Below are positions 3,058-62,130 of a DNA stretch of 64,000 nt, in pieces (within the stretch, counting starts at the first letter, position 1; each line of letters begins with the position of its first letter). The stretch is from Halorhodospira halochloris. Lineage in GTDB: Bacteria > Pseudomonadota > Gammaproteobacteria > Nitrococcales > Halorhodospiraceae. The notes under the pieces were generated by a model, which had not been told where the DNA came from, did not search any database, and worked only from the letters and a program-made list of their open reading frames with translations. A program made the translations under genes and the position numbers. Where the stretch lies: positions 186,001-250,000 of the forward strand of contig NZ_AP017372.2 in the NCBI RefSeq assembly GCF_002356555.2. Reading direction: 5' to 3'.

Positions 3058-3274
3058 AACCTTTAGGGAAGTATTGCCAGATAGCACATTTACTTGTGTC
3101 TAAAAAAGCCCCCCCTCGGAGCCATAGCTGCCCGGTGTGGAGGTCTTGGCGCCAGGGATGGCGCCATGAAGCCTCCAGGGATGGATTGACGGCGTCCTCC
3201 ACACCGGGCAGCTATGGCTCCGAGGGGGCTTGGGGAACACGTGTAGGCGCTACCTGAATACTTCCCTAAAGGTT
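3058..3274 (+). repeat. Palindromic element copy 3 with extra outer inverted repeat
   Basis: Core arms at about 3107-3232 enclose the standard centre. An additional perfect 18-bp inverted repeat (3058-3075 and 3257-3274, containing CTTTAGGGAA) lies outside, separated from the core by unrelated spacer. It sits between the convergent lpxD and HNH genes, where it could serve as a two-way terminator. Confidence 0.92.
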
Positions 3275-18608: not shown

Positions 18609-18655
18609 TCGAGATTAAGAGCGCAGCAGCACTTTGCGGTCTCGGCGTCACCGTG

Positions 18656-18786
18656 GGACGCCTCTAATCTCTGTCCCCTTGAGCCACTGGGCTGCCCCGG
18701 CGTGGAGGTCATGGCGCCAGAAATGGCGCCATGAAGCCTCCAAGGAAGGATTTACGGCGCCCTCCACGCCGGGGCAACCAAGCTGC
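18656..18786 (+). repeat. Palindromic element copy 4, right outer arm missing
   Basis: The left terminus (GGGACGCCTCTAAT) and both inner parts are present. The right arm stops being complementary just after CCGGGGCAACC and runs into the aroB stop codon at 18787. The inner hairpin has a GAAA loop between two TGGCGCCA boxes, in place of the usual GGGA. Confidence 0.88.
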
Positions 18787-19851
18787 TTAGGTGGTCTCTA
18801 TAGACCTATGCAGAGCACCATGATCGAACTCACTAGTTACCAGGGCATCGCCAATTCCCTTAAGGAGCACCAACCGTATTCGGCCACCTTGGCTTTTCTT
18901 GTCGACGCTCATCAGTTCCAAAAAGCGCTCTAGCGGGATATTGGGTGGCCTTTGTGGTAAGCCGAGCTTGGCCAGCAACCTTTGAGTGCGTTGCAGATCT
19001 GCTTCGCAAAGCCAGCCGAGTTCTACCGACACACGGCAGGCCATACATATGCCTACCGCAACCGCCTCGCCATGTAGCCAAGCCGAGTAATTGGTGTAAG
19101 TCTCAATGGCGTGCCCGAAGGTATGACCTAGGTTTAATAAGGCGCGCACTCCCCCTTCTCTCTCGTCTGCCGCAACCACCTCGGCCTTATTGCGACAGGA
19201 CTCGGCCACAGCATGGGCAAGTGCATCGGCGTCTTTAGCGAGCAGTTTGTCAGCATTACGCTCAAGCCAGGAGAAAAACTCCGGATCGCGGATCAGCCCG
19301 TATTTGACTACTTCAGCTAGTCCAGCGGCGAGTTCCCGCTCGGGTAAAGTGCCCAGTAGGTAGGTATCTGCGATAACAGCTTGGGGCTGGTGAAAGGCGC
19401 CGATCATATTTTTGCCCTGAGGGTGATTGACGCCGGTTTTGCCACCTACCGAGGAATCGACTTGGGCAAGCAGGGTAGTGGGTATTTGGACGAAGTTTAT
19501 GCCCCGTTGGTAAGTGGCGGCACAAAAACCGGCTAGATCACCAATTACACCCCCGCCAAGGGCTATTATGGTCGCGGAGCGGTCGAAACGGCCGCTAATC
19601 AGGCTGTCGTAAACCCGTTCGCAGGTTGTGAGGGTCTTGTAACGCTCGCCATCCGGCAAAACCAGGTCGGTGACACTAACATTTTCCGGTGTTACCAGCT
19701 GACCCCGGTAGCGAGGACCTACCGTCTCGTTGGTGATCAAAAGGGCACGTGAGTCGGTTATGTGCCTGTCAAGCAGACCCTGCTTGATAAGGTCTGGGCC
19801 AATGTAGATAGGGTAGCTCCGCTCGCCAAGGTCAACTGTTAAGGTACGCAT
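18787..19851 (-). CDS. aroB: 3-dehydroquinate synthase
   Basis: 354 residues from the ATG at 19851 (a TTG precedes it). Second step of the shikimate pathway: DAHP to 3-dehydroquinate, NAD and metal dependent. Visible motifs are GGGVIGDLAGFCAATYQRG (NAD and substrate site), PTTLLAQVDSSVGGKTGVNH, and the metal-binding LNLGHTFGHAIE and WLHGEAVAVG. It lies 47 bases after aroK in the same direction, the usual gammaproteobacterial order. Confidence 0.97.
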   Translation of the reverse strand: MRTLTVDLGERSYPIYIGPDLIKQGLLDRHITDSRALLITNETVGPRYRGQLVTPENVSVTDLVLPDGERYKTLTTCERVYDSLISGRFDRSATIIALGGGVIGDLAGFCAATYQRGINFVQIPTTLLAQVDSSVGGKTGVNHPQGKNMIGAFHQPQAVIADTYLLGTLPERELAAGLAEVVKYGLIRDPEFFSWLERNADKLLAKDADALAHAVAESCRNKAEVVAADEREGGVRALLNLGHTFGHAIETYTNYSAWLHGEAVAVGICMACRVSVELGWLCEADLQRTQRLLAKLGLPQRPPNIPLERFLELMSVDKKSQGGRIRLVLLKGIGDALVTSEFDHGALHRSIETT

Positions 19852-23546: not shown

Positions 23547-23622
23547 CCTTTAGGGATTGCTGAAGCCGCTGCTACGCGAGTTTTGCTTGGTCATCGCGGC
23601 AGTCCATTGGCGCTTGCCTTGA

Positions 23623-23777
23623 GGGCGCCTCTAAAACCTCCCCTGAGCCAATTTGCTGCCCCGGTGTGGAGGAGGACGCCGTTAGTCCATCCCTGGAGGC
23701 TTCATGGCGCCATCCCTGGCGCCAAGACCTCCACACCGGGGCAGCTAATTGGCTCAGGGGAGGTTTTTTGAGGTTCC
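23623..23777 (-). repeat. Palindromic element copy 5 (reverse orientation)
   Basis: Long outer stem, with CTAAAACC on the left and GGTTTTTTGAGG on the right. An A-run plus stem plus T-run like this would terminate transcription in either direction. It separates convergent dgt and pilQ. Its centre on the minus strand matches the consensus with both GGGA loops. Confidence 0.95.
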
Positions 23778-23801
23778 TTTGAGAGTGGCCCTTGAGAATG
23801 G

Positions 23802-26392: not shown

Positions 26393-26506
26393 AGCGTCTC
26401 CTCCGTGAGACGGGTTGTGTGCATCCTTGCACGAGCTTCTGTTTAGCTCTGCTTTTTGCTAGCATTGGAATCTATTAGAAGGTGCAAGCTTTAAGCTCTT
26501 CCTATC

Positions 26507-26654
26507 GGGCGCCTCTAAAACTCCTCCCCGGAGCCACTCAACCGCCCCGGCGCGGAGGCCTGGTGCCAGGGATGGCGCCATGAATCCTCCAGGTGTTGAT
26601 CCACGGCGTTCGCCGCCGGAGCATTTGAGTCGCTCCGGGGGGTTAGAGGTTCCC
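26507..26654 (+). repeat. Palindromic element copy 6
   Basis: Diverged copy between divergent pilus and ponA genes. The inner hairpin keeps pairing through a G-U wobble (TGGTGCCA opposite TGGCGCCA, GGGA loop); the second mini-hairpin is degraded. Confidence 0.9.
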
Positions 26655-26845
26655 TGTCCACCGACCGAATTATATCCATATTTTTTGTGGATAGGATACT
26701 TTTTTGTTGGAGATGCAGAAAATTTTTTACAATCAGGGCAGGGCTCAGGGGGGCTCGTCACGAAACCACCCATGGCAATGCTTCTGGATAAGTTAGTATA
26801 CTGAAACCGAATCAACCCCCGGGCGAAGGCCCTGAGAATGACTCT
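26655..26845. promoter_or_regulatory. Divergent promoter region of ponA and the pilus genes
   Basis: AT-rich stretch. On the minus strand TATAAT (26674-26669) is a perfect -10 toward the pilus genes, which would put palindrome copy 6 in their leader. On the plus strand TTGTTG (26704-26709) and TACAAT (26728-26733), 18 bases apart, are a candidate ponA promoter. TATCCA-N9-TGGATA (26673-26693) is a possible operator-like inverted repeat. Another AT-rich box, TATACT, lies near 26796. Confidence 0.5.
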
Positions 26846-31683: not shown

Positions 31684-31712
31684 AAAATAGCTTCTGCGCG
31701 GTGATTGGTCAA
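31684..31712 (-). promoter_or_regulatory. Predicted sigma-70 promoter of rpmE2-gltA
   Basis: On the minus strand TTGACC (31712-31707), exactly 17 bases, then TATTTT (31689-31684). The -35 box ends four bases from the start of palindrome copy 7. Confidence 0.65.
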
Positions 31713-31715
31713 GAA

Positions 31716-31868
31716 GGGAACCTCTAAAAACCTCCCCGGCGCCATTATCTGCCCCGGTGTGGAGGTCTTGGCGTCAGGGATGGCGCCATGAAGCCTCCAG
31801 GGATGGATCCACGGCGTCCGCCACACCGGGGCTGATAATGGCGCCGGGGAGGTTTTTTTGAGGTTCCC
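31716..31868 (+). repeat. Palindromic element copy 7
   Basis: Near-perfect copy. GGGAACCTCTAAAAACC on the left mirrors GGTTTTTTTGAGGTTCCC on the right. The variable arm segment ATTATC pairs with GATAAT, and the inner hairpin tolerates a G-U pair (TGGCGTCA opposite TGGCGCCA). It lies between the promoters of divergent rpmE2 and the MgtE-N-like gene and could insulate them. Confidence 0.96.
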
Positions 31869-31914
31869 AGAGACATTATTGGTAGAGTGATAAACTGCTG
31901 CGAATGGCGCTCTC

Positions 31915-34950: not shown

Positions 34951-35169
34951 GACTGCGGCTGCGGTTGCGGGTGACGGCCCCGCTCGGTGATATTGCTTAT
35001 CGCTACGCGGTCGCGTTCCTCCGCAGCGACCGGACAAGCGCGCTTCCGTGCGCGCATGTCCGGCGCTCGCATCCCTGCGAGCGCCCTTGCGGGTCTTTGC
35101 TGCTGCGTAACGCTGCTTCGCTTAAACAGCAATATCACCGAGAGGGGCCGTCACCCGCAACCGCAGTCG
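34951..35169. repeat. MITE-like 220-bp element with about 42-bp inverted termini
   Basis: The left end (GACTGCGG ... GGTGATATTGCT, 34951-34996) is repeated inverted at 35128-35169, apart from a 6-base CTGCGG duplication and single changes. The centre holds two further hairpins (CGGACA...TGTCCG and GCGCTCGCA...TGCGAGCGC). No protein is encoded. Unrelated in sequence to the 13-copy palindrome family; only one copy seen here. Confidence 0.85.
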
Positions 35170-35195
35170 TGCGCCTTGGCGCTGCTCACCCTTAG

Positions 35196-35346
35196 GGGCG
35201 CTTCGAAAATCTGGTCCGGAGCCAGTAGTTGCCCCGGTTTGGAGGTCTTGGCGCCAAGGATGGCGCCATGAAGCCTCCAGGGATGGATTCACGGCGTCCT
35301 CCAAACCGGGGCAACTACTGGCTCCGGGCCAGATTTTCGAGGCGCC
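35196..35346 (+). repeat. Palindromic element copy 8
   Basis: Arms differ strongly from other copies yet match each other: AGTAGT pairs with ACTACT, and CCGGTTTGG pairs with CCAAACCGG where most copies have CCGGTGTGG. Located 26 bases from the MITE-like element, between glcB and uvrA. Confidence 0.95.
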
Positions 35347-35451
35347 ATTAATTAACCAAGCTGCGCGCGCAGTTAGCTTGCCAAACGGCGGCCATATCAG
35401 GAAAGTTAGGCATGCACATTTAGCCACCCACGGCCAGTTGAGCTAACCTCA

Positions 35452-38400: not shown

Positions 38401-41133
38401 AGCGCAACCCCGCAGCAACTGGCTGCAGCGGCGGATACTGACACCGGCCGGGCCCTGGTGGAGTACCTGCAAAGTCGCGATACGGGCGCAATCCTAGCGC
38501 CGAGCACCGCAGAGGAGGGGTCTGCGGGGTGGCAGATCAAGGAGACTGGTCACTTGTCTCATTCATCTGTCATCACCATCGAGCAAGCGCGCGAGCACAA
38601 TCTTAATAATATTGATCTCGCTATTCCCCGTGAGCGGTTTACGGTGATTACTGGTGTCTCGGGTTCCGGCAAATCGACCCTCGCCTTCGATCTGCTCTTT
38701 GCCGAGGGGCAACGCCGCTATCTGGAATCACTTAATGCCTACGCCCGGCAACTCGTCCAACCGGCAGCCCGCCCGGATGTCGGTGCTATTAACGGCATTC
38801 CGCCGACCGTGGCGATTGAACAGCGAACCAGTAGGGGAGGGTATCGCTCGAGCGTAGCGACCCAGACCGAAATCTACCACTACCTGCGCTTACTCTATCT
38901 GCGCCTCGGGGTGCAGCACTGCCCCGAGTGTAGGGTTGCAATTAGTGTCCAGAGTGCCGAGGCCATTACCGCGCAGCTGATCTCTGCCTATAGGGGGGAG
39001 ACTATCGAGTTACTGGCACCGCTGGTGGTGGCGCGCAAGGGTATCTATAAAGAGTTGGCTGCCTGGGCAAGCAGTAAGGGCTATAGCTCGCTGCGGGTTG
39101 ATGGCGAGCGCCTGTCAACCACTGCGTGGCCCAAGCTTGATCGCTACCGCGAGCATGATATCGATCTGCCCATCGGCACCATTGAGGTGGCGGTTGAGCG
39201 GGAAGGGCAGCTGGCAGAGTTACTGGCTCTAGCCCTAGCACACGGTAACGGGGTGGTGCGGGTGCTAGCACCGGAGCGCGATGATGGTAGGGAGCAGGTT
39301 TTTGCTACCGCGCGCGCCTGCCCGAGTTGCGGGCGCGGCTTCGCCGAACCGGATCCACGGCTGCTCTCGTATAACTCGCGCCACGGCTGGTGCGGTGAGT
39401 GTAAAGGCACTGGTTTGAGCGTGACCGACCCGGATGAGGCCAGTGAAGAGGAGCTCGAGCGGGCTTGTCCCTGCCCAAGCTGTGACGGCGCGCGCCTTAA
39501 TCCAGAGGCCCGAGCAATATCCTTCCACGGCTACGGGATTGGTGAAGTAACCGCCTGGCCGGTTAGCCGTCTGCGGGAGTGGCTGGGTGCGCTGCAGCTA
39601 GATGGGCGGGGGAGTGCCATCGGGGCCGATGTGATAGCGGAAATAAATGCCCGGCTAGCCTTTTTGGAGCAGGTGGGGCTGGGCTATTTGACCCTGGATC
39701 GGGCAGCTCCAACCCTATCTGGAGGAGAGGCGCAGCGGATCCGCTTGGCAGCGAGTCTCGGTGCCGGTCTGCAGGGGGTCTGCTACATCCTCGATGAGCC
39801 GACTATCGGGCTACACGCTCGGGATAACGCCATGCTTCTCGGTGCCCTGCGCGAGCTCAGTGATGCCGGCAACACGGTGGTAGTGGTTGAGCATGACGAG
39901 GAGACGATCCGGGCCGCCGAGCATCTAATCGATATTGGGCCGGGGGCGGGGCGCTACGGCGGCAACGTGGTTGCTGAGGGCGGTGTTGAGGATCTGATTG
40001 CCAGTGAGCAGTCGTTGACCGGTCGAGTGTTGGCGAAGCCGCCGGAGCATCCATCGCGCCCCCGGCGAAGTGCACCCGCGCCAGGAAGTCTGGTTATCCG
40101 CGGGGCGAAGCGGCATAACTTGCAGGATATCGATGTCGATATACCGCTTGGGCGGCTGGTCTGTGTCACCGGGGTCTCGGGATCAGGCAAATCTAGCTTG
40201 GTGCGCGAGGTCGTAGAGCCCAATGTCCGTGCCATCCTGGGCCTTAAGAAAGGCCAACAGCGACCGCGGCCGAATGGTTGTCGGCAACTCAGCGGCACCG
40301 AATCGCTAAAACGGGTGCTGGAGGTTGATCAGACGCCGATCGGTCGCACCCCGCGTTCTTGTCCGGCGACATATGTAGGCATCTGGGATGCTATCCGCAA
40401 ACTCTTTGCGGCTACCGAGCAGGCCCGGCTGCGTGGCTGGAACGCCGCCCGTTTCTCCTTTAACACTAAGGGCGGGCGCTGCGAGGCGTGTTCAGGCCAA
40501 GGCACCAAGACGGTGGAGATGAGTTTTCTGCCGGATGTCAAAGTGCCCTGCGAGTCTTGTGCTGGAACGCGCTTTAGTGAGGAGACGCGTCAGGTCACTT
40601 ATGGCGGTCTGAGTGTTGATCAGGTGTTGGCGTTAAGCATTGAGCAAGCCCGCGAATTTTTCGCTGCTCATTCTCGCCTCGAGCATATCTTGGGCTTACT
40701 CAGTGATATCGGCCTCGGTTATCTGAGTCTAGGCCAGCCGAGTCCCACTTTGTCGGGCGGCGAGGCGCAGCGGCTGAAGTTGGTGACCGAGTTGGCTAAG
40801 GCGCGTCCCGTCGACGCTGGCGCTGCGCGAGGGCGGAGTGCGGCGCCGACACTGTATCTGCTTGATGAGCCGACGGTGGGGCTGCATATTGCCGATGTCC
40901 AGCGCTTGACCGATATGCTCCACGCCCTAGTCGATGGCGGCCACACGGTTGTGGTTATCGAACACAACCTCGATGTTATAGCCGAGGCCGATCACGTTAT
41001 CGACCTCGGCCCGGAAGGGGGCAGTGCTGGCGGCAGGGTGGTCGCCAGCGGCAGCCCGGAGCAGCTCGCCGCGGCCACCACGCCAACCGGCCAAGCGCTG
41101 CGCTCACTTCGCCTTGCGGAAGGCCTCAGCTAG
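35452..41133 (+). CDS. Double-length UvrA-like protein (tandem UvrA)
   Basis: 1893 residues, twice a normal UvrA. Four Walker A motifs GVSGSGKS lie near residues 35, 682, 1067 and 1573, each with an ABC signature (TLSGGEAQR) downstream. Each half has the UvrA insertions: UvrB-binding region, Cys pairs (CSGCG, CAQCD, CPSC) and the C-terminal zinc module (CPSCKGSG and CEACSGQG). Residues 1-945 and about 1020-1893 each look like a complete UvrA, joined by a linker with no stop. Such fused proteins are known in some proteobacteria beside a normal uvrA. Role in excision repair or resistance is not established. Its end overlaps tex by 30 bases tail to tail. Confidence 0.9.
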   Translation: MSTQEPIRIRGACQHNLKNLDLDLPAGELIVITGVSGSGKSSLAFDTIYAEGQRRYVETFSAYARQFLERMERPRVDSIEGVPPAIAIDQVNPVRTSRSTVGTMTELADHLKLLFARAAQPYCSGCGQPVRRDTPESIAEDLLTPDALGASSTERDPDTLASVEAERRIAVTFAVEVPDSLSREQLLELLSSQGYTRIYAQEDNRIEVVQDRLRLDSSRRSRLLEALETALDKGRGHLRVWQLGADREPQGEPLRYSSHYHCAQCDRAYAQPTAELFSFNSPVGACDHCRGFGRIMEIDPDLVIPDPRLTLEQGAIKPFRGGFSVECQEDLLRAARRCGVPVDVPWQELTAEQRQWVWGGEDRRGRGGRWYGVQGYFDYLERKSYKMHVRVQLSRYRAYRLCPECQGARLIAQALDFRLGSRELADAVLEPQQRFRPKHMRVDEDTLRALPGLTLHDLATLPLGRLQRFFAELDLPPPLDQAGATVLAEIRARVGFLNQVGLGYLTLDRQSRTLSGGEAQRINLTTALGTSLVNTLFVLDEPSIGLHPRDVGRLIAILQQLRDAGNSLLVVEHGPQVMAAADRIIDMGPGPGERGGEVIFNGTPGQLYGADTLTAAYLTGASRVERLRQAAGAASASAPVAENNADATPPCAGPWLRVRGAAEHNLQEIDVAIPLQRLVCLTGVSGSGKSTLAEAVIYRGLLRQRGEAVETPGKCAAIEGAEQLASVALIDQSPIGKSARSCPVSYTGALEPIRKLFAKQRLAKERGYSAGTFSFNSGNGRCPSCKGSGFEHVEMQFLADVYLPCPDCAGRRFRAEVLEVEVVGAAGNAASIHAVLAMTVAEAVSFFAASQEVKRHLQPLLDVGLGYLRLGQPVPTLSGGEAQRLKLAGHLAEQQSRAKGRLKNSGKSQPEDEASAGTLFIFDEPTTGLHFADVQVLLQAFQRLLEAGNSLLIIEHNLDLIANADWLLELGPTGGEGGGQLLASATPQQLAAAADTDTGRALVEYLQSRDTGAILAPSTAEEGSAGWQIKETGHLSHSSVITIEQAREHNLNNIDLAIPRERFTVITGVSGSGKSTLAFDLLFAEGQRRYLESLNAYARQLVQPAARPDVGAINGIPPTVAIEQRTSRGGYRSSVATQTEIYHYLRLLYLRLGVQHCPECRVAISVQSAEAITAQLISAYRGETIELLAPLVVARKGIYKELAAWASSKGYSSLRVDGERLSTTAWPKLDRYREHDIDLPIGTIEVAVEREGQLAELLALALAHGNGVVRVLAPERDDGREQVFATARACPSCGRGFAEPDPRLLSYNSRHGWCGECKGTGLSVTDPDEASEEELERACPCPSCDGARLNPEARAISFHGYGIGEVTAWPVSRLREWLGALQLDGRGSAIGADVIAEINARLAFLEQVGLGYLTLDRAAPTLSGGEAQRIRLAASLGAGLQGVCYILDEPTIGLHARDNAMLLGALRELSDAGNTVVVVEHDEETIRAAEHLIDIGPGAGRYGGNVVAEGGVEDLIASEQSLTGRVLAKPPEHPSRPRRSAPAPGSLVIRGAKRHNLQDIDVDIPLGRLVCVTGVSGSGKSSLVREVVEPNVRAILGLKKGQQRPRPNGCRQLSGTESLKRVLEVDQTPIGRTPRSCPATYVGIWDAIRKLFAATEQARLRGWNAARFSFNTKGGRCEACSGQGTKTVEMSFLPDVKVPCESCAGTRFSEETRQVTYGGLSVDQVLALSIEQAREFFAAHSRLEHILGLLSDIGLGYLSLGQPSPTLSGGEAQRLKLVTELAKARPVDAGAARGRSAAPTLYLLDEPTVGLHIADVQRLTDMLHALVDGGHTVVVIEHNLDVIAEADHVIDLGPEGGSAGGRVVASGSPEQLAAATTPTGQALRSLRLAEGLS

Positions 41134-43533
41134 GGCGGTGGTGGGGGCTTGTTCTTGTGGGGAGGCCCGGCCGCCACGTTTGCTTGCGGATGGGTTCTCG
41201 GCCGTGGCGGCCTTCTTCTTGCCCTTGCCAGCATTGGCACTAGCGCCGGAGCGGCGCTGGTCCGGGCCCTTGCCGGGTGATTTGCTCGCAGCACCGCGCG
41301 GCTCACCATCCCCGGGTTGATCATCGAGGCGCATTGAAAGGCCGATTCGCCGGCGCTCCTGATCCACTTCCAGCACCTTTACCTTTACCACATCGCCGGT
41401 GCGGACTACATCGCGGGGGTCACGCACAAACTCATGGGCTAAGGCAGATATATGCACCAGGCCGTCTTGATGGACGCCGATATCGACAAAAGCGCCGAAG
41501 TTGGCGACGTTAGTAACGGTCCCTTCCAGTACCATCCCCTCTTCTAGGTCGGCGAGCGTCTCAACACCTTCCCGGAAGGCCGCGGTGCGAAACTCCGGCC
41601 GCGGGTCACGGCCCGGCTTGGCAAGCTCCTGGAGGATATCGCGGACAGTCGGCTCGCCAAAGTTATCATCGGTAAAATCGCGCGGCTTGAGGGTTTTGAG
41701 GAAGGCCTCATCGCCTATCAAATCGCTGACTTGGCGTCCGGTTTGGGCGCAGATGCGCTCGATAACCGGGTAAGCCTCGGGGTGGACAGCCGAGGCATCG
41801 AGTGGATTATCGCCCTGAGGAATGCGTAAAAAACCAGCGGCCTGTTCGAAGGCCTTGGGGCCGAGTCGGGGCACCTTTTGTAGGTCCTTACGCGAGCGGA
41901 AAGCGCCATTTTCAAAGCGGTGGCTGACCAGCTTCTCAGCCAGGTTGGGGCCGAGGCCGGAGACGCGGGCGAGCAACGCTGCCGAGGCCGTGTTGGCGTC
42001 GACGCCGACAGCGTTAACGCAGTCCTCGACCACGGCGCTGAGCTTGTGGTTCAAGCGGCTCTGGTTGACGTCGTGCTGGTATTGGCCGACACCGATCGAT
42101 TTGGGCTCGATCTTTACCAGCTCCGCTAGGGGGTCCTGCAGTCGGCGGGCAATAGAGACCGCCCCGCGCATCGCTACATCTAGCTCGGGTAACTCGCGCG
42201 AGGCTTGCTCGGAGGCCGAATAGACCGAGGCGCCGGCCTCCGAGACCATAACCTTGTGCAGGCCGAGATCGGGGTGGCGCTTGATAAGCTCGCCGACTAG
42301 GGCGTCGGTCTCGCGCGAGGCGGTGCCGTTACCGATCGCAACCAGCCCAACCTCATGGCGGCGCGCCAACTCGGCGAGGGTCTTGAGCGACCCTTCGAGA
42401 TCCTTGCCCGCGGCGAAGGGGTAGATGGTGGCGGTATCGGCAACTGCACCCGTAGCGTCGATGACGGCGACCTTGACCCCGGTGCGCAGCCCCGGGTCGA
42501 GGCCGAGGGTTGGGCGTGGCCCGGCCGGGGCGGCTAGCAGCAGGTCCTCAAGGTTGGCGCCGAAGACGCGGATTGCCTCCTCTTCGGCCTGTTCACGCAG
42601 TTGCCGTTTTAGGGCTAGCTCGAGGTGGGGTGCCAGCTTAGCCCGCCAAGCTAGGCGGACTGTGCGGGCCAACCACTCATCGCTCGGGCGGCCTTGCTCG
42701 GCAATGCCGAAGTGGCGCGCAATCGCCCGCTCGCCGACGCTACTCGACTCCTCTTCGCCGCGGGCCTCGGCATCCGACCAGGCGATGTGCAGCCGTAAGA
42801 CCTCTTCGCTTTGGCCGCGGAGCATAGCCAGTGCCCGATGAGAAGGGATCTTATGCAGCGCCTCGGTATGATCAAAGTAGTCGCGAAACCGCGAACTCTG
42901 CTCTTGCTGCTCGGCGGCTACCCGGCTTACCAGATAGCCCTTCTGCCAGCCGTAATCACGCAATTCGGCGATCAGGTCGGCATTCTCCGCGAAACGCTCC
43001 ATGAGGATCTGCCGCGCCCCCTCCAGGGCGGCATCGGCGTCGGCAACCGGTGGGGTTGCGTCCGCTTGTACGGCTGTGGTCTCGGCATTTGTGGTAACAA
43101 AAGCAGCAGCGGCCTGTTGTGGGTCCTGGCTGGGGTCATTAAGCAAGCTATCGGCAAGCGGTTCGAGGCCAGCCTCGCGGGCGATCTGCGCCTTGGTGCG
43201 GCGCTTTTTCTGATAAGGCCGATAGAGATCTTCAACACGGGTCTTGGTCGCGGCGTTGCGGATGGCCTCAGCAAGCTCTGCGGTCAGCTTGCCCTGTTCA
43301 TCAATGGCCTTGATAACCGTCTCCTTGCGCTCCTCCATCTCGCGCAGGTAACCGAGACGCTCCTCAAGGGTGCGCAGTTGACTGTCATCGAGCCCGCCAG
43401 TGGCCTCTTTTCGGTAGCGGGCAATGAAGGGGACCGTCGCGCCCTCATCGAGCAGTTTGACTGCTGCTGCAACCTGGTTGTGATTTACTCCGAGCTCTTC
43501 TGCAATGCGTGCGGGGATGGTTTCTTGGGTCAT
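41104..43533 (-). CDS. tex: Tex-family RNA-binding transcription accessory protein
   Basis: 809 residues from the ATG at 43533; the frame extends upstream but MTQETIPARIAEELGV fits the family. In order: N-terminal HTH-like region (VPFIARYRKEATGGLDD), the YqgF-like nuclease fold (LGLDPGLRTGVKVAVID), helix-hairpin-helix (NAVGVDANTASAALLARVSGLG), and an S1 domain from about 640 (GMVLEGTVTNVANFGAFVDIGVHQDGLVH). A Lys/Ala-rich tail ends the protein. It is involved in transcription and RNA metabolism. Confidence 0.96.
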   Translation of the reverse strand: MTQETIPARIAEELGVNHNQVAAAVKLLDEGATVPFIARYRKEATGGLDDSQLRTLEERLGYLREMEERKETVIKAIDEQGKLTAELAEAIRNAATKTRVEDLYRPYQKKRRTKAQIAREAGLEPLADSLLNDPSQDPQQAAAAFVTTNAETTAVQADATPPVADADAALEGARQILMERFAENADLIAELRDYGWQKGYLVSRVAAEQQEQSSRFRDYFDHTEALHKIPSHRALAMLRGQSEEVLRLHIAWSDAEARGEEESSSVGERAIARHFGIAEQGRPSDEWLARTVRLAWRAKLAPHLELALKRQLREQAEEEAIRVFGANLEDLLLAAPAGPRPTLGLDPGLRTGVKVAVIDATGAVADTATIYPFAAGKDLEGSLKTLAELARRHEVGLVAIGNGTASRETDALVGELIKRHPDLGLHKVMVSEAGASVYSASEQASRELPELDVAMRGAVSIARRLQDPLAELVKIEPKSIGVGQYQHDVNQSRLNHKLSAVVEDCVNAVGVDANTASAALLARVSGLGPNLAEKLVSHRFENGAFRSRKDLQKVPRLGPKAFEQAAGFLRIPQGDNPLDASAVHPEAYPVIERICAQTGRQVSDLIGDEAFLKTLKPRDFTDDNFGEPTVRDILQELAKPGRDPRPEFRTAAFREGVETLADLEEGMVLEGTVTNVANFGAFVDIGVHQDGLVHISALAHEFVRDPRDVVRTGDVVKVKVLEVDQERRRIGLSMRLDDQPGDGEPRGAASKSPGKGPDQRRSGASANAGKGKKKAATAENPSASKRGGRASPQEQAPTTALAEAFRKAK

Positions 43534-43637
43534 GTGCGCTGTTTTTGCTCTGGGCAACTCTGGCTGAAGATTCAATAAAGCGTTCGATGTGCGCATGATA
43601 CTAAAAGTGGGCACCTTTTGGGGGTCCAAAGACCCTT

Positions 43638-43802
43638 GGAGGAATCTTTAAAAACCTCCCTCCGCCGTGGCTGCCCCGGCGTGGAGGCTTCATGGCGCCA
43701 CGGATGGCGCCATGAAGCCTCCAGGGATGGATTCACGGCGTCCTCCACACCGTCCTCCACACCGGGGCAGCCACGGCGTAGGGAATTTTTTATAGGCACC
43801 CT
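43638..43802 (+). repeat. Palindromic element copy 9 (upstream of RAYT-like gene)
   Basis: The inner hairpin is extended to 14 perfect pairs, from GCTTCATGGCGCCA to its mirror, with a CGGA loop. CGTCCTCCACAC is duplicated in tandem (43739-43762). The outer arms pair with mismatches. Confidence 0.93.
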
Positions 43803-43912
43803 AGAATCCGCTCGCCGCGGAAGATGCCGCACCCACAATCGCGTCATTGCTCTAGCTATTACTCGATAAGCGTAGTAGCTTAGCGATCAGCGTTCAGGGA
43901 GGGCGCTGAAGA

Positions 43913-44413
43913 ATGGACATGGAAGAGCAGAACTTGCCGCACCGGCGCGTCTACTTCGTTTTCTACACCTACCGCCGACACCCATGGCTGGCCAGGCCTG
44001 AGGCAGTGCAGCGGCTGCGCACCGCGTTTCGCGAGGTGGCGCGCCGGCGACCGTGGGTTTGGGACGGCGCGGTTATTCTTCCTGATGCAGTCCATGGACT
44101 ATGGTCAATCCCAGCGCAAGATCCCGACCCGCGGGGGCGCTGGCAGGCAGCAAAGGCCCACTGTACCCGGCATCTGCGCAATTGGCCCGGCTTGCCGCAA
44201 GGTAGGCTGTGGCAGCGCGGGGTTGAGTGGCATGATGTGGCCGCCGGTGAGTGGCGCCACTATCTGGACATGCTCCATTGGGAGCCGGTGCGCCGCGGCC
44301 TCGCGGCCCGGCCAGAGTGTTGGCGCTACAGCTCTTACCGGCGTTGCCAAGCCGCCGGCCTCTACGGTCAACCTTGGGAGCAAGCCCGACCGTTGCCGGA
44401 GATCTCACCGTGA
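43913..44413 (+). CDS. RAYT-like (REP-associated transposase) protein with altered active site
   Basis: 166 residues resembling the Y1/HUH transposases that live beside REP palindromes. The start RVYFVFYTYRRHPWL, the core VILPDAVHGLW, WQRGVEWHD, and YLDMLHWEPVRRGLAARPE, WRYSSY at the end follow the family order. In typical members the core reads PDHxH and the later motif reads YIHxNP. Here the first His is Ala59 (A59-V60-H61) and the position of the catalytic Tyr is Met120; a Tyr117 lies nearby. GGGAGG precedes the ATG and there are no internal stops. It is flanked on each side by a palindromic element, the layout of a REPtron. It may be inactive, repurposed, or using other residues. Confidence 0.75.
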   Translation: MDMEEQNLPHRRVYFVFYTYRRHPWLARPEAVQRLRTAFREVARRRPWVWDGAVILPDAVHGLWSIPAQDPDPRGRWQAAKAHCTRHLRNWPGLPQGRLWQRGVEWHDVAAGEWRHYLDMLHWEPVRRGLAARPECWRYSSYRRCQAAGLYGQPWEQARPLPEISP

Positions 44414-44430
44414 GCTGTGCTCTCACAGTT

Positions 44431-44580
44431 AGGGAACCTCAAATAACTCCCTTTGAGGCTAGCTGCGCCGGTGTCGAGGACGTCGTTAATCCATCCCGCG
44501 AGTCGCCGTGGAGTTATTCCCGGCGTCGAACCTTGCGCACCGAGGCAGCAAGGCTCTGGTGGGAGACTTTAGGGGCGCCC
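44431..44580 (-). repeat. Palindromic element copy 10 (degenerate, downstream of RAYT-like gene)
   Basis: Starts AGGGAACCTC and ends GGGGCGCCC; the centre (GAGGACGTCGTTAATCCATCCC, read in two parts) matches the reverse orientation but the pairing is heavily eroded. Its right end overlaps the last codons of the HARP gene (stop at 44569). Confidence 0.8.
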
Positions 44581-45186
44581 ATTAGCCTGCTGTTGGTGCA
44601 CATGGCTCTCGTCAACCATCGCCAGATTCTCCAGCACCTCACGCAGATAGAGTGGATTAACCAGCTTTATGCCGATGCGTTCGGCGAACTTGCGCATCCC
44701 CTCATCGGCAGAGACCAGACTGGCGTCGAGCTCATAGGCGAGCAGAACGACATCGATGTCTTCCCGCGAGTCGAGGATGCCGCGGCGCATAGCTTCGCGG
44801 TAGCGCTCGCGCAGATGGGTAATCATCTCTGGCTCCAGGCAGTTCGCCTCTCCGGCTTGGCGGGTATGCTCCTCAGCTATTCGCAGGCCGCGTTGGATGC
44901 GCGAGCGGACCTCTTCGATGAACTCATAGAGTACTTCGCTGGGGATGGTCAGCGAGAATCGGCGCGGCGAGCGGATATGCACCTCGGTCTCAAATGCCGG
45001 GCCGATAAGATCCATCGAGCGCAGGTTACACAGCTCCTGATATACTGGCCCGGGCATAAAGAATTCGGCATCGGCGCGCCGCGCTAGGCCGAGAAATACC
45101 GAAATCGCCTGCAGCGGTTCCTCGTCAAAGCGCAGGTAGATATTGGGATTGGTAAAGACGCTGGTGTCGAGCACGAATCGGCGCAT
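44569..45186 (-). CDS. RNA-free RNase P (HARP), PIN-domain protein
   Basis: 205 residues of the UPF0278 / 'RNA ligase partner' family, now known as HARP (homologue of Aquifex RNase P). The PIN-type nuclease core opens with FVLDTSVFTNP (Asp7). The distal acidic cluster is Asp139, Asp143 and Asp145 (DSREDID), then Asp161 (VSADEGM), the expected metal-binding residues. A long helical insert (about 80-130) is the family's protruding region used for oligomerisation and tRNA contact. It trims the 5' leader of pre-tRNA with protein alone. HARPs occur in Aquificales, many archaea and a few proteobacteria including Halorhodospira. The neighbouring RNA ligase seen in some genomes is absent here. The last residues are encoded by the palindrome end. 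Confidence 0.88.
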   Translation of the reverse strand: MRRFVLDTSVFTNPNIYLRFDEEPLQAISVFLGLARRADAEFFMPGPVYQELCNLRSMDLIGPAFETEVHIRSPRRFSLTIPSEVLYEFIEEVRSRIQRGLRIAEEHTRQAGEANCLEPEMITHLRERYREAMRRGILDSREDIDVVLLAYELDASLVSADEGMRKFAERIGIKLVNPLYLREVLENLAMVDESHVHQQQANGRP

Positions 45187-45276: not shown

Positions 45277-45744
45277 ATGCAGAAGCAAGTAAAAAAACGT
45301 CGGCTACGCTGTTTTGGGTTTACGTTAGTCGAGATGATGATCGTCGTCGCTATCATAGCAGCTCTGGCCGCCCTTGCGGTGCCGCAGTACCAGAACTACA
45401 TGAGCCGTACCCAATTCTCCGAGGCGTTGACGCTTTTCTCTGGGGTGCGCACCGCGGTAGAGACGCACGTCACTATTTACGGGGTCAATAGTGCTCTCCG
45501 GGCGGATGAGTTCCTGGCTGGACACAGGACTCAAGGTGAGCATATCTCAGATATTAGCGTAATCAATGCTGGACAAACGGTTCAGGTAGTACTGACATTC
45601 AAAGATGATGGCGTCAGCATGAACCTAGCTAGCGAGGAAGTCACCTTCAGCTGGGATACTGCCGAGATCAATGAAGGCTGGCAATGTAGCGTTAGTGATA
45701 CGGTCAAGCCATTTGCCTCGGGGATGTGTGCCAGCGCCGGCTAG
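45277..45744 (+). CDS. pilA: Type IV major pilin-like protein
   Basis: 155 residues. A positively charged leader (KKRRLRCFG) is followed by the prepilin cleavage site G/FTLVEMMIVV with Glu5 and the hydrophobic assembly helix ending in VPQYQNYMSR. The globular part has two Cys near the C-terminus (WQCS and GMCAS), able to form the pilin disulfide loop. An ideal ribosome-binding site (AAGGAGGTGA) precedes the ATG, implying strong translation. It is probably cleaved by PilD and assembled through the reduced pil locus about 20 kb away. A minor pilin role is possible. Confidence 0.9.
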   Translation: MQKQVKKRRLRCFGFTLVEMMIVVAIIAALAALAVPQYQNYMSRTQFSEALTLFSGVRTAVETHVTIYGVNSALRADEFLAGHRTQGEHISDISVINAGQTVQVVLTFKDDGVSMNLASEEVTFSWDTAEINEGWQCSVSDTVKPFASGMCASAG

Positions 45745-45762: not shown

Positions 45763-45924
45763 GGGGAAACTCTAACCCCCCCCCCCCCCCCCCCCTGGAG
45801 CCAATCATCCGCCCCGGAGTGGAGGTCTTGGCGCCAGGGGTGGTGCCGTGAAGCCTGCAGGGAAGGATTCACGGCGCCCTCCACACCGGGAAGCAGGGCT
45901 CGGGGGGAGCTGTTAAAGGCTACC
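45763..45924 (+). repeat. Palindromic element copy 11 with a 20-C homopolymer
   Basis: A run of 20 C residues (45776-45795) stands where other copies have a short CCCC in the left arm. The rest of the element is recognisable but loosely paired. Between convergent pilA and the PP0621-family gene, 19 bases after the pilA stop. Confidence 0.9.
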
Positions 45925-45959
45925 GAAGGGTCTGCGCATAGGGGGCTGCCGCGCAGCTG

Positions 45960-46364: not shown

Positions 46365-47543
46365 GTGAATCTACATGAATTTCAGGCCAAACATCTACTT
46401 GCGGAGCGGGGCGTTAGTATCCCGCGAGGATATGTCGCACGTTCTGGGGCCGAAGCCCGGGCAGCTATCGGTCGCCTTGGCGGCGATGCTTGGGTGATAA
46501 AAGCGCAGGTTCACGCCGGTGGTCGCGGCAAGGCTGGGGGCGTCAAGGTCTTAAATAATGAGGATGAGGCCGCTGATTTTGCCGATTCCCTGCTCGGCCA
46601 ACGGCTGGTCACCAAGCAGACTGATGCGGCTGGACAGCCCATCGAGGCTGTGATGATTGAAGAGGGGTTGGCTATAGAGCGCGAACTCTATCTGAGCATG
46701 CTAATTGACCGGGCCCGCCAGCGCGTCGTCTGTATCGCTTCAGCGGCGGGCGGCATGGATATAGAGGAGGTTGCCGCGACTGCGCCAGAGCAGATAATCA
46801 CCATCGAGGTCCATCCCAGCGCCGGTCTGCAGCCTTACCAAGGCAGACAGGTAGGCTTCGCGCTTGGTCTGGATAAACGTCAGGTAGGCGAACTGACCGC
46901 GATGTTGCAGTCGTTCTACCAGCTGTTCATTGAGCGCGATCTATCACTCATCGAGATCAATCCGTTAGTGGTCGATAGCGCCGGGTCGCTGATCTGTTTG
47001 GACGCCAAAATTACCGTCGATGATAACGCCATTGAGGTGGGTAAGCAGCAACAGCTTGCCGCTATGCGCGATCTTAGCCAGGAGGATGCTACCGAGGTGC
47101 GGGCAGCGGAGCATCAACTCAATTACATTACCCTGGATGGCAATATCGGCTGCATGGTCAATGGTGCCGGTCTGGCCATGGCGACGATGGATATCATCCA
47201 AGTCTATGGCGGAGCACCGGCCAATTTCCTCGATGTCGGTGGTGGCACCAGCGCCGCAAAGGTAACCGAGGCCTTTAAGATTATCCTCTCCAGCCCCCGG
47301 GTTGAGGGCATCCTGGTCAATATATTCGGCGGGATCGTCCGCTGCGATATGATAGCTGAAGGCATCATCGCTGCGGTTCGGGAAGTTGAGATAAATGTCC
47401 CAGTAGTGGTGCGCTTAGAGGGGACCAACGTCGAAGAGGGCAAGCAGTTGCTCGCCGATAGTGGTCTCGATCTTATCCCTGCCGCTGATCTCGCCTATGC
47501 AGCCGAGCGAGTAGTGGCAGCGGTCGAGCAGCGCCGTCCATGA
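46365..47543 (+). CDS. sucC: Succinate-CoA ligase (ADP-forming) beta subunit
   Basis: 392 residues beginning with GTG after GGGAGGAG. ATP-grasp fold: MNLHEFQAKHLLAERGV, KAQVHAGGRGKAGGVK, the metal-binding EINPL, and the nucleotide/CoA region with FGGIVRCDMIA. With SucD it converts succinyl-CoA to succinate with substrate-level phosphorylation. In an operon with sucD and nadE (27-base gap to sucD). Confidence 0.97.
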   Translation: MNLHEFQAKHLLAERGVSIPRGYVARSGAEARAAIGRLGGDAWVIKAQVHAGGRGKAGGVKVLNNEDEAADFADSLLGQRLVTKQTDAAGQPIEAVMIEEGLAIERELYLSMLIDRARQRVVCIASAAGGMDIEEVAATAPEQIITIEVHPSAGLQPYQGRQVGFALGLDKRQVGELTAMLQSFYQLFIERDLSLIEINPLVVDSAGSLICLDAKITVDDNAIEVGKQQQLAAMRDLSQEDATEVRAAEHQLNYITLDGNIGCMVNGAGLAMATMDIIQVYGGAPANFLDVGGGTSAAKVTEAFKIILSSPRVEGILVNIFGGIVRCDMIAEGIIAAVREVEINVPVVVRLEGTNVEEGKQLLADSGLDLIPAADLAYAAERVVAAVEQRRP

Positions 47544-50493: not shown

Positions 50494-50527
50494 TCCAAGG
50501 AATGACTGGGGCAGAGGGTTATTAACA

Positions 50528-50678
50528 GGGCACCTCGAGAAGCTCCCCCGGCCTGACTGGTTGTCCAGGCTTGAAGGACGCCGTTAATCCGTCCCTGGAG
50601 GTTCATGGCGTCAGACCAGGTGCCGAGACCTTCACGCCTGGGCAAACAGTCAGACCGGGGGAGCTTCTCGAAGTGCCC
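50528..50678 (-). repeat. Palindromic element copy 12 (most diverged arms)
   Basis: Arms read GGGCACCTCGAGAAGC... and ...GCTTCTCGAAGTGCCC: very different from the family consensus but still complementary over nearly 50 bp. The centre is reverse orientation. Between convergent glnB and bamD. Confidence 0.92.
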
Positions 50679-50744
50679 AGCAGTTAAAGGTGCCATCCCT
50701 TAAACTGCTAAATAGGTCTGGCGCTCTCATCTCATAGCCGTAAC

Positions 50745-61967: not shown

Positions 61968-62130
61968 CCCTTAGGGAACCTCTAAAAACTTCGCCGGCGC
62001 CACCATCCGCCCCGGTGTGGAGGACGCCGTGAATCCATCCCTGGAGGCTTCATGGCGCCATCCCTAGCGCCAAGACCTCCACACCGGGGCGGATGGTGGC
62101 GCCGGCGAGGTTTTAGAGGTTCCCTAAGGG
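61968..62130 (-). repeat. Palindromic element copy 13
   Basis: Arms extend outward to CCCTTAGGGAACC / GGTTCCCTAAGGG. The variable part ACCATCCG pairs exactly with CGGATGGT. The inner hairpin has one G-U pair. In the 374-base gap between the GGDEF-EAL gene and aspS; the rest of that gap shows no other feature. Confidence 0.95.

Follow-up and report, generated by a model that had tools for sequence, protein, structure and literature searches.

RAYTs, the REP-associated transposases, behave like host genes whose role in the cell has yet to be established (PMC8049555, PMC8266576). In the Escherichia coli protein, TnpA-REP, the hairpin is bound by helix α3, with K82, Q95 and R104 among the residues that contact the REP (PMC8266576). 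A REP is defined as a hairpin of 20–50 nt tagged with GTAG or CGTC, and in the order studied here the majority of canonical RAYT genes have short GTAG hairpins repeated in both flanks (e.g. CGTAGGGCGGATAAGCGCAGCGCATCCGCC and GTAGGTTGGGCCGACGAAGGAGGCCCAAC). As long as a RAYT is active, a host role is hard to tell apart from the copying of REPs.

The gene described here lies in a stretch of 64,000 nucleotides (the window) that spans positions 186001–250000 of the Halorhodospira halochloris genome, a single contig of 2,834,560 bp. It occupies positions 43913–44413 of the window on the forward strand and encodes a protein of 166 residues. An earlier note on this DNA had assigned the protein to the RAYTs and had described its frame as intact with a good ribosome-binding site; the analysis agrees on each point, the open reading frame starting at an ATG codon with GGGAGG upstream. 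The protein matches the NCBIfam model NF047646 (REP_Tyr_transpos) with 82.5 bits, slightly above the cut-off of 80; all eight members of its orthologue set match this model, and a search of the 166-residue protein against Pfam matched no family. A profile built from the orthologues had a single hit among solved structures, E. coli TnpA-REP (PDB entry 4er8; E = 1.4e-17). The AF2 model of the protein, calculated with six sequences in the input, has a pLDDT of 78, and the top PDB match of this model in Foldseek is again 4er8, in which the protein is bound to a REP hairpin (E = 4.1e-10, TM 0.70); IS200/IS605 transposases are the next structural matches. Membership of the RAYT (TnpA-REP) family is thus secure, as the NF047646 match, the profile match and the best structural match all lead to it. 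Real Y1_Tnp copies occur elsewhere in the H. halochloris genome.

The orthologue set consists of the window gene and its counterparts in seven of eight congeneric genomes, one copy in each, with identities to the window protein of 58–72%, or of 64–73% when only the matched part is counted. Among the relatives are a record named Halorhodospira abdelmalekii and a genome of 2,678,452 bp (G006) that we regard as H. halophila SL1. All eight loci keep the order tex–RAYT–(HARP)–pilA–sucC; tex was not seen adjoining the RAYT gene in H. abdelmalekii. In the window, tex (an S1 RNA-binding protein; 41104–43533, reverse strand) is the divergent neighbour and HARP (PIN_5, a homolog of Aquifex RNase P; 44569–45186, reverse strand; PF08745 6.1e-65, TIGR03875) the convergent one, followed by a conserved type IV pilin-like gene (45277–45744, forward strand) and by sucC (46365–47543, forward strand), which ends the syntenic block. 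HARP adjoins the RAYT gene in six of the eight loci and is missing there in G001 and G005. A functional pairing of the two genes was rejected since the RAYT persists at these two loci without HARP, and a genome of the sister genus (G010), in which HARP lies 24 kb from the RAYT gene, gives no support for such coupling either. The H. halophila orthologue of HARP, a protein-only homologue of RNase P, is probably the solved protein Hhal2243 (PMC8266387). None of the RAYT gene, HARP and tex was found in G003, the ninth Halorhodospira genome. Its sucC begins 503 bases from the edge of a contig; an assembly gap probably covers the locus, and the absence is uninformative.

Both catalytic motifs are altered, as had been noticed from the window protein: the motif alignment places Ala59-Val60-His61 (AVH) at the HxH column and Met120 at the tyrosine column, and Glu124 replaces the metal-site asparagine. 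The first histidine of HxH is absent from all eight orthologues (AVH in seven, within PDAVHG; VVY in H. abdelmalekii, within PDVVYG), the tyrosine column reads M/E/E/H/R/R/W/A with no tyrosine, and the metal-site asparagine is glutamate in every case (NP to EP). The alignment also contains 19 canonical homologues, all of which retain HxH and the tyrosine, and so do the eleven further gammaproteobacterial homologues that were inspected. The eight orthologues form one clade on the tree, with a support of 100/100 and a long stem. Because every genome of the genus with a visible locus, eight in all, shares the loss, the alignment dates it to the Halorhodospira ancestor, and the proposal of a recently disabled transposase is rejected on this shared loss and on the single clade. 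Tyr117, which had been put forward as a substitute nucleophile, is found only in H. halochloris (A, V, E or Q elsewhere) and was rejected as a position that is not conserved. Judged from these sequences, the protein is a pseudoenzyme whose inactivation is not recent and which would not process DNA; its ancestry makes it a RAYT, and by its two catalytic features and its REP association it does not qualify as a working one. A search of 369 gammaproteobacterial genomes gave a best score of 126 bits outside the genus versus 279–313 bits within it, and as no outside match comes near the genus scores, the catalytically dead branch seems to be restricted to Halorhodospira. The sister-genus RAYT (G010:C3:90796-91221), a member of the same family that branches elsewhere on the tree, has an arginine at the catalytic tyrosine, an intact HLH and REPs on neither side; the nucleophile thus seems to have been lost on more than one occasion, with this protein as an apparently independent, partial case.

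The window also holds 13 copies of a palindrome, at 448–611, 1792–1954, 3089–3233, 18652–18814, 23616–23783, 26502–26655, 31712–31871, 35190–35352, 43635–43805, 44428–44584, 45789–45930, 50522–50684 and 61968–62128, and the RAYT gene lies between the ninth and the tenth. The well preserved seventh copy (forward strand) was the query for genome searches. The ninth (forward strand; nhmmer 121.5 bits), a MITE-like element of the ∼155–165-nt kind on the 5' side of the gene, has an internal 12-nt duplication and a decayed target-site duplication. The tenth (reverse strand; nhmmer 61.1 bits), on the 3' side, is degenerate and is bordered by the near-perfect target-site duplication GTTAG/ATTAG; it overlaps the HARP gene, whose final codons sit inside it. 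In another copy a run of ∼20 C (45776–45800) stands in place of the left arm. Outside the family, a 42-nt inverted repeat (34956–35169) has arms that are 95% complementary and 130 nt apart. The elements are about 155 nt long and mostly intergenic, form hairpins with conserved pairing, and end in inverted repeats (GGGAACCTCTAAAA.../...TTTTAGAGGTTCCC in well-preserved copies). About 45 copies were counted in the 324 kb of the H. halochloris genome that were sampled, and a first look at the whole genome gave 328–336 candidate copies; the copy number of hundreds used here is an estimate from these two counts.

The 5-mers that flank the elements are 81% identical, versus 41.5% in shuffled pairs (maximum 52% in 1000 shuffles), and the target-site duplications match at 4/4 positions in 34 of 48 copies and at 5/5 in 26 of 48, the shuffled control being far lower. 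A target-site duplication is the mark of insertion by a staggered double-strand cut; HUH enzymes of the IS200/IS605/RAYT kind act on single strands and are not known to make such duplications. The palindromes are a MITE-like family, separate from the RAYT and mobilised by a transposase whose insertions leave target-site duplications. Nor, with a length of ∼155 nt, terminal inverted repeats and target-site duplications, do they conform to the definition of a REP. Among the DDE_Tnp_1 loci that were checked for an autonomous partner of the element, a degenerate IS5-like transposase was the sole candidate, and one end alone is similar: near the remnant at G000:C1:2243645-2243920, an end at 2244133 (TTTATAGAGGCTCCC) resembles the inverted repeat of the element, and this locus is a possible source of the mobilising enzyme.

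The sequence family appears specific to H. halochloris. It is absent from H. halophila, and two other congeners gave only three partial matches and one weak one; the sampling of the relatives covered 216 kb of H. halophila and 155 kb of H. abdelmalekii. There is no palindrome within the 12–17 kb around the seven orthologous RAYT genes, and the upstream copy is missing from the equivalent interval in H. halophila. Orthologues in close relatives that have no such palindromes beside them count, by the earlier note's own terms, against its reading, and the orthologues found here are of this kind; the gene is independent of the element. A 14-mer count over the 216 kb of H. halophila, which could miss low-copy hairpins, revealed no other high-copy repeat family. 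GTAG REPs were found at none of the Halorhodospira RAYT loci examined, where the repeats amount to the two MITE copies in H. halochloris.

It could still be that the long-dead enzyme has secondarily come to bind the MITE hairpins in H. halochloris, for example as a silencer. The fold and the basic charge have been kept, hundreds of hairpin copies are on offer, and young copies show an excess of pairing-keeping changes on both arms (55 versus about 14 expected), an excess to which hairpin-templated correction or selection on structure may give rise. However, the gene is kept equally in species free of the element, so that such binding cannot be the conserved function, and the sequence gives no sign of specificity; we regard this role as improbable.

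The same species comparison bears on the state of the gene itself. Pairwise dN/dS values (NG86) are 0.16–0.41, which is moderate, and dS is near or above 1 in many pairs; both points count against a domesticated host gene. Across the eight species ∼70 residues are invariant, and the Shine–Dalgarno region is conserved, with TCAGGGAGG in several of them. The reading frame is open in all eight orthologues; in a neutral simulation at a GC content of 0.67 it stayed stop-free in ∼4–15% of the runs per branch, for branch lengths of 0.25–1.0. The orthologues have pI values of 9.5–11.3, versus a median of 5.6 for the ORF products of the H. halochloris genome. A decaying pseudogene held open by the chance of high GC could account for the residue at the tyrosine position, which varies freely, and an open frame is less improbable in GC-rich DNA, but the invariant residues, the dN/dS values, the conserved Shine–Dalgarno region and eight open frames out of eight make it a decidedly unlikely account. 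The word 'domesticated', one of the options offered for this gene, is borne out by the fixed locus in the genus together with the dN/dS range and the open frames.

The invariant residues of the clade include H122, E124, D70, D72, H83 and Y139, from which a new active site might have been built in place of the HUH/Tyr pair, leaving a nuclease of another kind. D70, D72 and H122 are, however, near-invariant in canonical RAYTs too, no new metal triad is evident, no new conserved tyrosine lies near the old site, and H61 has become tyrosine in H. abdelmalekii; we consider a replacement nuclease very doubtful.

The position of the gene between two copies of the palindrome, which the earlier note had reported correctly, is unremarkable: 35 of 249 sampled intergenic gaps (about 14%) hold a palindrome and four of 263 sampled ORFs are bracketed likewise, so that bracketing is expected now and then. 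As the downstream copy has its own near-perfect duplication, it is a separate insertion and not the end of a composite element. The classic REPtron layout that had been read into this arrangement, and the proposed binder or processor of the palindromes, both fail on the target-site duplications of a MITE-like element and on its absence or near-absence in congeners that keep the gene. A REPtron in which the protein would bind or process the palindromes beside its gene and would have helped to spread them, to which the two flanking copies and the conserved hairpin pairing would lend themselves, was rejected as highly improbable, since the active site is gone, the elements have target-site duplications and are not short GTAG-tagged hairpins, GTAG REPs are missing, the element is near-absent from gene-bearing congeners with palindrome-free loci, and other H. 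halochloris genes are bracketed too. A RAYT beside palindromes is by itself no proof of a REPtron.

The explanation that we consider likely is that of a domesticated, catalytically dead RAYT, inherited as a host gene and probably a binder of structured nucleic acid, beside which separate palindromes landed by chance. A single-copy RAYT in the Halorhodospira ancestor would have lost its HUH metal site and its nucleophilic tyrosine, and the dead RAYT would then have passed vertically at the tex–RAYT–(HARP)–pilA–sucC locus as a host gene, with its fold and strongly basic charge retained. The protein would most likely act by binding structured nucleic acid, be it hairpin DNA or hairpin RNA, and leaving it uncut; possible roles include regulation and the occlusion of hairpins in transcripts or at replication forks. 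The MITE-like family would have spread in H. halochloris and, by chance, inserted on both sides of the gene. Nucleic-acid binding and a host role are most likely, as far as we can infer. In the dead clade the region of helix α3 is highly conserved, the position of E. coli K82 is taken by an invariant alanine (Ala82), and the equivalents of Q95 and R104 are variable or lost. From the conserved helix and the altered contacts, we read the ligand as changed rather than lost. A GTAG REP is an unlikely ligand, because several REP-contact residues are gone, and binding itself could be lost. We lean somewhat towards a history in which the genus ancestor gave up the chemistry of a transposase and the remaining binding of hairpin DNA or RNA came under selection in the host, free of REPs.

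A literature search found no description of a catalytically dead RAYT, although Tyr-less RAYTs may have been mentioned before. A lineage that has kept the fold for the age of the genus, with neither active site nor REPs, separates a host role from REP copying; the function of a dead RAYT cannot be transposition, and the question of host function thereby becomes directly testable, H. halophila being one suitable species. If the proposed history is true, what began as a transposase now binds nucleic acid in a structural or regulatory role for which no REP is required.

Compared with described systems, the locus resembles the TIR-flanked RAYTs (TIRYTs; PMC3733652) in that a long repeat, present in inverted copies, encloses the RAYT gene; it differs from them in that both flanking copies are complete elements, of which one has a near-perfect target-site duplication of its own, and in that the orthologous loci are without them. 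The palindromes are like the bacterial MITEs ERIC, NEMIS and Nezha in size (∼155 bp), inverted-repeat ends, target-site duplications, copy numbers in the hundreds and a mostly intergenic position, but form a sequence family that appears particular to H. halochloris. With the IS200/IS605 TnpA proteins (IS608, ISDra2) the window protein has the superfamily fold in common, whereas by sequence it is closer to the RAYTs, and it has no IS ends and no catalytic tyrosine. The 19 canonical homologues, active RAYTs of the same order (the best 35–40% identical to the window protein), keep HxH and YxHxNP and are mostly flanked by GTAG REPs, neither of which holds for the window protein. Unlike E. coli MG1655 TnpA-REP (4er8), it is without HxH and the nucleophilic tyrosine, has glutamate for Asn119 and altered REP-contact residues, and is not flanked by GTAG REPs; like that protein, it is encoded by a single-copy gene with no sign of mobility, and it shares with it the fold, the domain length and the LPD...H and IHxxPV..G frameworks.
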